From Candidatus Binatia bacterium (GTDB lineage Bacteria > Desulfobacterota > Binatia > UBA12015), in the NCBI GenBank assembly GCA_029243485.1, contig JAQWRY010000072.1:1-64000 (forward strand): a DNA stretch of 64,000 nucleotides. Direction: 5' to 3'. Both the position numbers and the translations under genes were made by a program. The notes beneath the pieces were generated by a model. It was given only the letters and a program-made list of their open reading frames with translations. It was not told the DNA's origin and ran no database searches. Numbering within the stretch: the stretch's first letter is position 1; every line of letters begins with the position of its first letter. This document shows positions 3,852-8,365 of this stretch, piece after piece.

Positions 3852-5150
3852 TCAAGAGAAGAGCGTCGCGCGACGGAGTTCGTCTCTGAACTCCGGGTGC
3901 GCGATCGAGGTCAGTGCGTCCGCTCGTTCCTGCACTGTTCGACCGAAGAGCTCGGCCGCGCCGAACTCGGTGATGATCGCGTCGACCTGATGGCGGGGGG
4001 TGGTCACGAGCATCTCGGTACCGAGGGCGGCATCGATCCGGGAGATCCGCTTGCCGTCGCGCACCGAGCTCGACGGCAGACACACGAGGGATCGGTTTTG
4101 TAGGGACTGGCCGGTTCCCTCGACGAAGTCTTCATGGCCGCCGATGCCCGAAAACTGCCCGCCGGCCAGAGTGTCCGCGGCGACCTGACCTGCGAGATCG
4201 ACTGCGAGTGCGCCGTTGATCGAGATCATCTTCCGGTTGCGCCCGATCAGCCCGGGATCGTTCACGCGTTCGACCGGCAGGAAGCGAACGTCTTCGTTTC
4301 CGTCGAGCCAGTCGTAGAGCTCTCGGGTTCCGGCGGCGAAGGTGCACACCGACACCCCGTCGTAGAGGCCCTTCTGGTTCGTGACCTTGCCCGCGCGGTG
4401 GAGCTTCATCAGTCCGCTCGTGAACATCTCGGAGTGGATGCCGTAGTCGCCGCCGTTGCCGTCCGCGAGACGCCCGACCACGAGGCTCGGAACGCCGCCG
4501 ATTCCGGTCTGTAGCGTGCACCCATCGGAGACGAAGCGCGCCACGTGCTTTGCGATTGCTGCGTCGACTTCGGTTGGCGCCGGATCCTGTAGAGTGAACG
4601 GCTCGCTTTCGCTTTCGATGAGGATGTCGACGTCTTCCATGCGAAGGCAGTGAGGCGAGTCGGGTTCGATGCCGACCGTTCGCGGGAACCGGGGACTCGC
4701 CTCGACGATGAGCAGCCGATCCGGGTCTCGACCGCACCGTTCGAGCTCGGTGACCGTGGCTCCCGCGTGGAGGGAAAGGCTGAGGCGGCCCTTCTCGTCG
4801 GGCCTCGAGGCGGCCGTCGCCATCACGCGCGGATGAAGCCGCTCGAGGATCACGCCGAAGCGTCGAAAGTCTCCTGGGACGAACTGCACGTCGTGTCCCG
4901 CGCCCCGCAGGAATCTCTCGGCCGGGCCGTAGAAGCCCGTGAGGAGACGCACGCCGGGGCGCATGAAAAGCTCGAATAAGTCGGTGAGCAGTGCGGTCGA
5001 TACCGTGAGGTCCTCGAACCGGTCTTCGGCTCCGAGCGCCTTCAGGAAGTCCGATGGCTGCCCCGGTCCGAGGGGAACCGCGAGGGTATCCTTGGCTCGA
5101 ACCAGACCGGCTGCTTCTTGTGCGCTTACGAAGCGGGGGGAGTCGCCCAT
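3852..5150 (-). CDS. Acetyl-CoA hydrolase/transferase family (class I CoA transferase)
   Basis: The 432-aa product has the fold of 4-hydroxybutyrate/acetate CoA transferases. TGIGGVPSLV (the glycine-rich CoA loop) and YGIHSEMFTSG (the catalytic Glu that forms the glutamyl-CoA intermediate) are both present, as is the C-terminal ISRIDAALG region. It probably moves CoA between acyl-CoA and a free acid in the cytoplasm; the acids cannot be told from sequence. It is divergent from cysH at 5250 with about 100 bp between, and convergent with the alpha/beta hydrolase operon. Length matches the family. Confidence 0.87.
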   Translation of the reverse strand: MGDSPRFVSAQEAAGLVRAKDTLAVPLGPGQPSDFLKALGAEDRFEDLTVSTALLTDLFELFMRPGVRLLTGFYGPAERFLRGAGHDVQFVPGDFRRFGVILERLHPRVMATAASRPDEKGRLSLSLHAGATVTELERCGRDPDRLLIVEASPRFPRTVGIEPDSPHCLRMEDVDILIESESEPFTLQDPAPTEVDAAIAKHVARFVSDGCTLQTGIGGVPSLVVGRLADGNGGDYGIHSEMFTSGLMKLHRAGKVTNQKGLYDGVSVCTFAAGTRELYDWLDGNEDVRFLPVERVNDPGLIGRNRKMISINGALAVDLAGQVAADTLAGGQFSGIGGHEDFVEGTGQSLQNRSLVCLPSSSVRDGKRISRIDAALGTEMLVTTPRHQVDAIITEFGAAELFGRTVQERADALTSIAHPEFRDELRRATLFS

Positions 5151-5249
5151 GCGGAATGGATACCGGGTTTCCTACCGCAATCAATCGGGGAGCCCTCGCG
5201 GTCCCGCGCCGCCTTGCGTTGGCGCGTCCGGGGGCGGAGAACCGCAGAG

Positions 5250-5978
5250 ATGAGCGATTCGCCGGAAGCCTCCGAGACGTCCACCGCTCCCGCTCTTTCG
5301 CTCCCCTCGAAAGAGCTGGATGCGATGTCGGCGGAAGATGTTCTTTCCTGGGCCGCGCAGGAGTTCGGGGAGCAGTTGTGCGTTACGTGCTCCTGGCAGA
5401 AGCAGTCGTCCGTGCTGATTCACATGCTCTCGGAATTGGGGCTCGAGCCCGCGGTCGTCGAGCTCGATACACATCTGTTCTTTCGTGAGAGTTACGACAC
5501 GCGCGACCGCTTGGTCGAGAGGTACGGGCTGACGCTCACGGGACCGCAGATCCCATCGATCGCCGAGCAACACAAAGCGGAAGGTCCGAATCTCTGGGAA
5601 ACGGATCCCGATCGGTGCTGTCACATTCGCAAGGTCGAGCCGCTCATCGAAGCTCTGCACCCGTTCGGCGCCTGGGTGTCGGGGATCCGGCGCGATCAGT
5701 CTCCGAGCCGCGCGACGATCGGCAAGACCCAGTGGTCGGAGCGCTACGGCGTTTGGAAGCTGCACCCTCTGGCCGACTGGGATGAGAAGCGTGTTTGGAC
5801 GTACATCACGGCGAATCAGATCCCGTACAATCCCTTGCACGACGTGGGCTACCGCTCCATCGGTTGTATCCCCTGCACGCGACCCATCCGGACAAACGAG
5901 GAAGAGCGCGCGGGGCGGTGGGCCGGTTCGGACAAGCTCGAGTGCGGTCTGCACCTCGAGACGATCGACAAGGAGTAG
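5250..5978 (+). CDS. cysH: Assimilatory adenylyl-sulfate (APS) reductase
   Basis: The enzyme reduces activated sulfate to sulfite for cysteine synthesis. The 242-aa protein has the PAPS/APS reductase fold with VTCSWQKQSSVL near the N-terminus, and the iron-sulfur cysteines RCCHIRK (about 122-128) and IGCIPCTRP (about 203-211), plus the C-terminal redox Cys in ECGLH (ECGIH in most relatives). The CC...CxxC set marks the 4Fe-4S, APS-preferring type found in many bacteria. I chose ATG 5250; the frame is open 132 bp upstream, but that part carries no family sequence and would enter the divergent promoter region. No cysD/N or sulfite reductase gene is adjacent. Confidence 0.93.
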   Translation: MSDSPEASETSTAPALSLPSKELDAMSAEDVLSWAAQEFGEQLCVTCSWQKQSSVLIHMLSELGLEPAVVELDTHLFFRESYDTRDRLVERYGLTLTGPQIPSIAEQHKAEGPNLWETDPDRCCHIRKVEPLIEALHPFGAWVSGIRRDQSPSRATIGKTQWSERYGVWKLHPLADWDEKRVWTYITANQIPYNPLHDVGYRSIGCIPCTRPIRTNEEERAGRWAGSDKLECGLHLETIDKE

Positions 5979-5988
5979 CTCGCAAGCG

Positions 5989-8340
5989 TTAGCGCGCGCG
6001 CCGCTTTTTGGCCTTCTTGGGGGTCGACCGCTCGATCCACGAGGTCGCCTCGGCCAGGTCGGCGAGCCATGGGGCAGACGTGGAGTCCGATGGTGCGCGC
6101 CAATCCCCGCGCGGCGAGAGGGAGCCGCCCGATCCGACCTTCGGTCCGTTCGGCGAAGCCGAACGCTTGAACTGGCTGGTGCGGAAGAAGCGATCGAGGA
6201 ACGATCTCTGCCACGAGAGAATCTCCTCCATGGGATACTTGCCGTCGGCCGCTGAGACCGGCGTGTCGCTCGACCACGCGTGGGCGAAGAGCAACGCGAC
6301 CTTGGACGGCGCGTAGCCGCGTCGGCTCATGTAGTAGAGGTCGAAGTCGTGCAGTTCGTACGGGCCGATGGTCTTCTCCGTACTCTGGATCTCCCCGTCG
6401 GTCGCATGGGCGGGGATGAGCTCGGGACTGATCTCGGTTGCGAGAATGCGCCCCAGAACTGCGGCGCCGGCCTTCCCAGTCTCGGGTAGATCGGCGACCC
6501 ACTCGATGAGGTAGTGGATGAGCGTCTTGGGGACCGAGACGTTCACGTTGTAGTGAGACATCTGATCGCCGACGCCGTAGGTGCACCAGCCTAGAGCGAG
6601 CTCGCTCAGGTCTCCGGTGCCGACGACCAGGGCGCCGTGGTGATTGGCCAGCCGAAAGAGGTGGCTCGTTCGTTCGCCCGCTTGCACGTTCTCGTACGTG
6701 ATGTCGTAGCGTTCCTTGCCCAGAGCGTGCGGGTGCCCGATGTCGCTCAGCATCTGTTCGCTCGACGGTCGGATGTCGATTTCGCTTGCGGTCACGCCGA
6801 ACGCCTTCATCAGGTCGTGAGCGTTGCTCCGCGTTTCCTTCGATGTTGCGAATCCGGGCATCGTGTAGGCGAGCACGTTCGTTCGGGGGAGTTCGAGATG
6901 GTCCATCGCGCGGGCGGAGACGAGCAGTGCCTGCGTCGAGTCGAGGCCCCCGGAGATGCCGATGACCAGCTTGGTGATCCCGGTCGCACGTAGCCTCTTC
7001 ACGAGGCTCGTTACCTGGATGTTGTACGCCTCGTAGCAGCGCTCGGCTCGCCGCATGGGGTCGCTGGGGACGAAGGGGAGACGTTCGAACGTCCGTCGTA
7101 GGTGCGTGGCTTCGGTCGGCGGCGTGAAGCGGAAGGGGATGGTTCTCATCGTGTGCGCACGGTGATCGGCGGCGCAGTCGGCGAAGCTCGTCATGCGAGC
7201 ACGCTCCTGGACGAGGCGGTCGAGGTCGATGTCGGCGAACACGAGTTGCGCTTCGTCGACGAATCGCTCGGATTCGACCAGGCGTTCTCCATCCTCGTAG
7301 GCGAGGGCGTGTCCGTCCCATGCGAGGTCGGTCGTCGACTCGCCGGTGCCGGCGGCGGCGTAGAGATAGGCGGAGAGTGTCTTGGCGGATTGCCCGGCGG
7401 CGAGTTGTTGGCGGTAGCTGGACTTTCCGATTGTCACGTTGGAGGCAGAGAGGTTCGTGAGCACCGTCGCACCGTGGAACGCGGCATATGTCGACGGTGG
7501 AATTGCGACCCACACGTCCTCGCAGATCTCCGCGTGCACGGCGAAGTCGGGCTGACGTTCGTCGCGGAAGATGAGATCGCTACCGAACGGTACGTACTGT
7601 TGACCGAGGCACGGGACGGTCGTCGCGAGAGCGTCGCGGCCGCTGGTGAACTGACGTTTCTCATAGAACTCGCGGTAGTTCGGCACGTAGGTTTTCGGAG
7701 TGATGCCGAGGATCCGGCCGCCCGTTGCGAACACGGCGCAATTGTACAGGCGGCCCTGGAACCGGAGTGGGGCGCCGACGATCGCAAGCGCGGTGTTCTC
7801 TTCGGTTGCCGCGACGACTTCGGCGAGGCCTTCGAGGACGGCGCGCAGAAGAGCATCTTGCTGATGCAGGTCGTCGAGCGAGTAGCCCGACAGTGCGAGT
7901 TCGGGGAAGAGGACTAGTGCGGCGCCTTCGCGGACGGCGGCGCGATACGTGGCTGCAATCTCAGCCGCGTTCGCGGCCGGGTCCGCGAGGTGCACCCGCG
8001 GGACGCTAATCGCGGCCCGGACGAATCCGTGTGCGTACAGGTCGAAGAAAGACCGCTCGGCGTTGCTCTTCGGCCGAACGTCCAGCTGTTGATTCCAGTC
8101 GTGCCCGAGTTCGTCGAGCCGATCCGGGATCAGGTGGTTCCAGCGTTCCCGGCCGCGCCGCTCGACCCGAACGAGGCCGGCTTCGACGAGAGTCGCGAGG
8201 TGCTTCATGACGCCGTATCGCGTGATCTCGGAGCCGTCGGCGAGCTCGCCGGTTGTGCGGGGGCCGCTCCGTAGGGCCTCGAGGATGCCCCGTCGGTGGG
8301 GGTCGGCGAGAGCGCGCCAGAGCCGGTCGGAGGTCTTCAT
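5989..8340 (-). CDS. nadE: ArsR-type HTH domain fused to glutamine-dependent NAD+ synthetase
   Basis: The 783-aa open frame joins two proteins. Residues 1 to about 90 are an ArsR-family winged helix ([39 protein letters not shown]). From about residue 97 the sequence is a complete NadE: nitrilase domain with catalytic Glu (FPELALSG), Lys (TPKTYVPN) and Cys (AEICEDVW), then the synthetase P-loop GISGGLDST and [12 protein letters not shown]. NadE makes NAD+ from deamido-NAD+ with glutamine. Ordinary NadE begins at the FFDLYAHGF segment; no ATG, GTG or TTG lies near it here (only a CTG), so translation through the HTH seems needed. A lysine/arginine-rich low-complexity tail follows the catalytic part. 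An inverted repeat covers the ATG. A DNA-binding NAD+ synthetase is unusual; a recent joining deletion is an alternative. Confidence 0.85.
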
Positions 8341-8365
8341 GTGACCATAGAGTCACATATGTAAC
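8339..8365. promoter_or_regulatory. Palindromic operator over the nadE-fusion start codon
   Basis: ATGTGAC (8339-8345) and GTCACAT (8352-8358) are perfect inverted 7-mers separated by 6 nt. A further half-site ATGTAAC (8359-8365) forms a second near-palindrome GTCACATATGTAAC with the right arm. The left arm includes two bases of the start codon at 8340. ArsR-family repressors bind dyads of this size near their own promoters, so autorepression by the HTH domain of the fusion is the natural reading; this is inference. Confidence 0.6.

Follow-up and report, generated by a model that had tools for sequence, protein, structure and literature searches.

An in-frame fusion of an ArsR-type winged helix to glutamine-dependent NAD+ synthetase, with a predicted operator over its own start codon

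Among the repressors of NAD genes, NadR has NMN adenylyltransferase (and kinase) domains, NrtR joins a Nudix domain to the NrtR winged helix, and the 3H domain is that of NiaR. A 2025 paper counts four such repressor types, NadR, NiaR, NrtR and NadQ, and presents NadR of Salmonella and E. coli as a protein of NAD metabolism that also represses NAD genes (PMC12421817). NadR is listed again among the trigger enzymes of E. coli, together with BirA, PepA, PutA and PyrH, in an account that describes PutA and other trigger enzymes as an enzyme and a DNA-binding domain in one chain, with repression of a single target that includes their own gene (PMC8249747). In the ArsR family, Rv2034 is reported to repress itself by way of a 20-bp palindrome, located by footprinting near its coding sequence, in which N4 separates two 8-bp repeats (PMC3338718).

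Within the window, which is the whole analysed stretch of 64,000 nucleotides, a single open reading frame on the reverse strand (5989–8340; ATG at 8340–8338) encodes 783 amino acids with zero internal stops. An ArsR-type winged helix-turn-helix (HTH; residues 1–78, 8107–8340) is followed by a linker of about 20 amino acids (residues 75–95, 8056–8118) and by a glutamine-dependent NAD+ synthetase, NadE (residues 96–765, 6046–8055). As judged by its sequence, the product would be a trigger enzyme, with an intact enzyme and a DNA-binding domain in one chain. It would share with NadR a role in NAD metabolism combined with repression, but both the enzyme and the DNA-binding domain differ: Pfam and NCBIfam gave no match in the fusion protein to NMN adenylyltransferase or kinase domains, nor to a Nudix domain with an NrtR winged helix. 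Furthermore, NadR represses other NAD genes (nadB, nadA), whereas the one perfect site of the fusion lies on its own gene. PutA has a different enzyme and a different HTH class, and for the fusion a ligand switch is only possible. Rv2034 is likewise of ArsR type with a 20-bp palindrome near its own coding sequence, but has no enzyme attached. The fusion is a candidate repressor as NrtR, NiaR and NadQ are repressors, and we know of none of these three fused to NadE. An earlier note on this DNA, made from the sequence alone, knew of no described ArsR-NadE protein; none is among the literature matches listed.

The N-terminal domain belongs to the ArsR/SmtB family by both fold and family profile. 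Pfam HTH_20 matches residues 11–60 (2e-13), HTH_5 matches residues 13–58 (35.1 bits against a cut-off of 22) and NCBIfam NF033788 (ArsR/SmtB) matches residues 6–78 (59 bits against a cut-off of 55). An AlphaFold2 model of residues 1–95 (mean pLDDT 82.6) shows helices and wing in the order typical of ArsR proteins, and its best PDB match is the ArsR-family chain 3f6v (E 4.6e-6), followed by SrnR 7p6f and 3f6o. Metal sensors of the ArsR/SmtB family have metal-binding cysteines, for example in the ELCVC motif; residues 1–78 hold no cysteine, and the domain is therefore not a classical metal sensor. In a model of all 783 residues the HTH reached only a modest pLDDT (43–74 per block) because just three alignment rows cover it, while linker residues 79–93 fell below 50. 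The last HTH helix, which is not conserved in sequence, spans residues 72–78 in one model and 72–86 in the other, so that any mode of HTH dimerisation is hypothetical and the dimerisation helix may or may not have been lost.

The enzyme part has the glutaminase and synthetase domains, the E-K-C triad and the SGGxDS loop of a glutamine-dependent NAD+ synthetase of the PRK02628 type. NCBIfam NF002730, NAD(+) synthase, covers residues 97–765 (3.4e-297; 987 bits against a cut-off of 473), and E147, K216, C273, S463, G464, G465, D467 and S468 are invariant in a 22-sequence alignment; we take E147-K216-C273 to be the catalytic triad and the SGGLDS P-loop to be the ATP loop, both of which are intact. 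Over its whole length (residues 97–762) the NadE part aligns with the glutamine-dependent NAD+ synthetase 3dla (E 1.5e-214), which, like 3syt, we take to be NadE of Mycobacterium tuberculosis. The whole enzyme is shared with that protein, but the aligned mycobacterial chain starts where NadE starts and has no N-terminal HTH. Between residues 91 and 770 the 783-residue model averages a pLDDT of at least 85 in 42 of 68 ten-residue blocks, with low-confidence stretches at 584–591 and 723–753.

Orthologous fusions are present in two congeners of the window genome (G000), namely G001 (85% identical) and G002 (80%). The in-frame fusion proposed in the earlier note is therefore borne out by one 783-residue frame and its two orthologues: at the junction, which the note had suggested inspecting in related genomes, the fusion recurs in three distinct assemblies, and the separate genes or frameshift that it had named as a refutation are absent from both orthologous genes. 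The note had also observed that the normal NadE start offers no usable initiation codon. In the window fusion there is no in-frame ATG, GTG or TTG between codon 45 and codon 116, so that none lies near the usual NadE start at about residue 95; CTG occurs at codons 70, 86 and 101, of which 86 and 101 are the sole rare-start candidates near that start. Apart from the fusion, no NadE turned up in G000, G001 or G002 (completeness 98, 92 and 87%, respectively).

The distribution of the fusion is narrow. Full-length fusions were detected in 3 of the 58 genomes searched as relatives (window genome included), all in one genus, where three of the four species examined carry it. The exception, the congener G003, has a short NAD synthase and an adjacent, separate glutaminase-like amidase gene (L128:5488–7430; gene kinds assigned from sequence and from the positions of homology matches). 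Matches in two different frames in several further genomes of the class suggest that this split form of NadE, read in sequence in G003, may be common there. A class-level search again returned the fusion in three genomes out of 148 (E ≤ 1e-11). Matches in G024 and G085 extend past the HTH but contain stops, in open frames no longer than 135 and 119 amino acids, and are therefore stand-alone ArsR genes. In a draw of 395 genomes from the phylum (E ≤ 1e-12; for each genome in the listed rows, no more than 10 candidates were scored) the only match was in the window's own genome; G001 and G002, absent from these matches, were taken as not drawn because both match far better than the limit in the class search. 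More diverged fusions could fall below the E limits of both searches.

The nearest unfused nadE genes, in G006 (68%) and G010 (66%), each begin at an ATG of their own, 14 codons upstream of the NadE core. No HTH-like N-terminal extension was found in the best 80 of at least 590 relatives in the genome collection or in 27 further unfused relatives. This survey comprised 111 rows, four of them fusion rows. Of the 107 other NadE loci, one (L039) is truncated by the end of its contig; 37 are preceded by 40 or more open codons, and none of these 37 extensions matches the HTH better than E 2. Searches of plasmids and viral contigs also gave no ArsR-NadE fusion.

Pairwise dN/dS among the three fusions (Nei-Gojobori) was 0.08, 0.15 and 0.17 for HTH residues 1–74, 0.07–0.12 for NadE residues 96–765 and about 0.5–1 for the linker, all approximate ratios since dS is high (0.7–1.8). 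Only 5 of the 20–21 linker residues are identical per pair, and the linker of G002 has a 4-residue insertion. The HTH and NadE are both under strong purifying selection, and the linker is near neutral. Two conserved domains and a free linker, held in the same frame in three species, rule out an indel, a pseudogene or decay. ArsR-NadE is a real, conserved and narrow new architecture. At the HTH-NadE junction of G002 there is an in-frame ATG after GGAGG (L125:8911–8922), from which free NadE may also be translated in that species.

A 20-bp operator-like dyad, ATGTGAC-N6-GTCACAT, lies at 8339–8358 and overlaps the start codon. In the window it reads ATGTGAC-TCTATG-GTCACAT, its right arm holding the A and T of the ATG, and it overlaps the ATG in all three fusion species. 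When these are anchored at the ATG, 14 of 14 arm positions are invariant, compared with 1 of 6 in the spacer and 9 of 62 upstream. The perfect dyad over the ATG reported in the earlier note is thus confirmed, with arms invariant in three species. Its third half-site, GTTACAT (8359–8365), did not hold up as a functional part: it is found only in the window species, is missing from both orthologues, and is probably not a conserved part of the site. The dyad also differs in spacing from a CRP-type site, since eight bases (N8) separate TGTGA from TCACA here, against TGTGA-N6-TCACA in the E. coli CRP consensus.

The perfect dyad occurs once each in G000, G001 and G002, always at the fusion gene. 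At the base composition of the window, 0.007 perfect copies would be expected in the 6.55 Mb of G000, and one was found; chance is ruled out by one perfect copy per fusion genome in the same place. In G003, G006 and G010, which lack the fusion, the perfect dyad is absent and only 2-mismatch sites occur. Sites with up to two mismatches, counted per strand against a backward-read control, numbered 2 versus 0 in G000, 4 versus 0 in G001, 2 versus 0 in G002, 1 versus 0 in G003, 1 versus 3 in G006 and 1 versus 2 in G010. A scan of the window alone at up to three mismatches (1 found, 1.38 expected) is uninformative on the perfect match. A wider regulon was rejected on the perfect sites, of which the fusion genomes have no second, and on those 2-mismatch sites that were inspected (see below). 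The prediction that the dyad is an operator is strongly supported.

Palindromes were also sought beside stand-alone relatives of the HTH, in a sample of 12 matches at 11 loci, none dropped, which was compared with shuffles. Near the aligned start, a perfect 7-6-7 palindrome occurs in 4 of the 12 (shuffle frequency ≤ 0.013). Counting those with 6 or more of 7 pairs brings the number to 7, but the three that stop at 6 reach shuffle frequencies of only 0.07–0.09. The remaining 5, including the window genome's own paralogue (L002), have no palindrome of the dyad's geometry that beats the shuffles. Some of these ArsR relatives carry ATGTAAC-N6-GTTACAT, of the same 20-bp geometry, beside their own starts; closest to the dyad are ATGTAACCTATTGGTTACAT (L137) and ATGTAACCTTAAGGTTACAT (L142), which end 4–5 bases before the aligned start. 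At both loci, by eye, TTGACA and TTACAT boxes 17 bases apart flank the left arm, TTACAT lying within the right arm. In a second group of stand-alone ArsR relatives, ATGCAA-type palindromes of the same 20-bp geometry stand about 2–20 bases before the HTH start, at L133, L136, L139 and L140 (at L139 by eye; the best-scoring palindrome of that locus is not of the family type), and could represent an operator code of this ArsR branch.

The best reading of these data, to which we assign a probability of about 0.8, is that the NadE fusion represses a single target, its own gene, through the predicted operator. According to this model, nadE was joined in frame downstream of the domain of an ArsR-type autorepressor and retained the operator of that repressor. 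The fusion protein would make NAD+, and the NadE oligomer would pair the HTH domains and so supply the dimer for the dyad; mycobacterial NadE is an octamer. The paired HTHs would bind the 20-bp dyad over the promoter and start codon, and the bound fusion would block RNA polymerase at the start, repressing its own gene only. DNA binding, repression and dimerisation through NadE are all inferred. In G006 and G010 a TAAGAT/TAACAT box stands 6 bases before the ATG, and these -10-like boxes hint at leaderless messages in this family; the place of the box lies under the dyad in the fusion species. The self-repression suggested by the earlier note is in this form supported by a real fusion and by an operator-like dyad that overlaps the start codon of the fusion gene. 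Counting against it are the five stand-alone matches with no palindrome better than shuffles, the weak shuffle frequencies of three others, the palindrome of another type that scores best at L139, the non-conserved last helix of the HTH, the congener that lacks the fusion and the possible free NadE of G002. If autorepression is correct, this would be a natural case in which an essential enzyme captured an autorepressor together with its operator. Gene control would then sit within the enzyme that completes NAD+ synthesis, and would do so in a lineage that has NrtR as well.

Autorepression may further be gated by ligand, such that the state of the NadE active site (e.g. loaded with NaAD/ATP or bound to NAD+) shifts the spacing of HTH pairs on the oligomer and nadE expression tracks the supply of NAD+. 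Such gating would be autorepression in a stronger form, not its opposite, and we hold it only tentatively; the sensing or reporting of NAD+ metabolism that the earlier note proposed belongs with it. A DNA affinity that changes with substrate, product or glutamine would make the fusion a trigger enzyme in the strict sense. Because the fusion partner is the enzyme that ends the pathway, the sensor would reside in the enzyme itself, PutA and other trigger enzymes are described as acting in this way (PMC8249747), and four other repressor types are counted for NAD genes (PMC12421817). However, the near-neutral linker and its insertion in G002 argue against a rigid allosteric relay, and simple autorepression set by the level of the product, with the protein perhaps gauging just its own amount, fits the data equally well. 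In the full version of ligand gating, which we likewise consider possible without favouring it, a NadE oligomer with several ArsR-type HTHs would read its own substrate or product state and set transcription of its own gene independently of NrtR. If true, ArsR-NadE would stand beside NadR, NiaR, NrtR and NadQ as a fifth type of repressor and would be a trigger enzyme of a new kind. Control of transcription by an enzyme's own turnover state is open to direct testing here, with a single protein and a single 20-bp site.

In the window genome an nrtR-type gene immediately follows a gene that we take from its sequence to be nadA (L148:6103–7823, G000:C7); the two would share 4 bases at the nadA stop and the GTG start of the nrtR-type gene. 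The fusion is thus not the only candidate NAD regulator of this genome, and is predicted to work beside a standard NAD repressor. This is the genome's single NrtR_WHD match and lies outside the fusion protein; a search of the genome for the 3H domain found none, and three cytidylyltransferase-like genes are present.

Two further readings keep the dyad as a control element and take it away from the fused HTH. Another, stand-alone regulator might bind it, the HTH being a passenger or an aid to oligomerisation. ArsR paralogues are indeed present in these genomes, but we regard this as unlikely: the restriction of the perfect dyad to the fusion gene, its absence from the three genomes without the fusion, the strong purifying selection on the HTH and the likeness between the dyad and sites next to some of the HTH's own relatives all speak against it. 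Very unlikely, in our estimate, is an RNA hairpin that hides the start codon for translational control. The sequence would suit one, as perfect 7-bp arms enclose a 6-base loop and the repeat ends in the ATG, yet the arms are invariant with zero compensatory changes across three species, some stand-alone ArsR relatives have the same geometry upstream of the start, and in a leaderless message, at which the -10-like boxes of the unfused G006 and G010 genes hint, the left arm would be untranscribed. That two genes were merely joined by an indel in annotation or assembly has a probability of practically nil, for although the assemblies are all drafts, one frame is common to three distinct species whose fusion genes are 77–80% identical in DNA, two of the three lack ATG, GTG or TTG at the NadE position, and the orthologues already refute it.

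Some smaller features of the locus and its relatives were recorded. The C-terminal tail (residues 766–783, 5992–6045, reverse strand) is basic in all three fusions, with a charge of +5 in the window, and its sequence is not conserved. As a fusion-linked feature it is weak, because 7 of the 107 non-fused NadE loci also have a net charge of at least +2 in this region and three, including the nearest unfused relatives L006 and L007, are cut there by a contig end. A 2-mismatch site that is itself a 7-6-7 palindrome, the 20-mer ATGAGACGCCGTAGTCTCAT, is identical in G001 and G002 (L121:688–707, L122:1501–1520). It lies within coding sequence, where a frame that is presumably response-regulator-like overlaps the start of one that is presumably sensor-kinase-like, and its recurrence probably reflects coding conservation, not a second operator. 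The other 2-mismatch site of G000 (L119) has no clear gene start. Finally, in the interval 5118–5989 of the window there is a forward-strand gene that we take from its sequence to be cysH-like; its end, at 5978, is 10 bases away from that of the fusion gene, with which it forms a tightly convergent pair.
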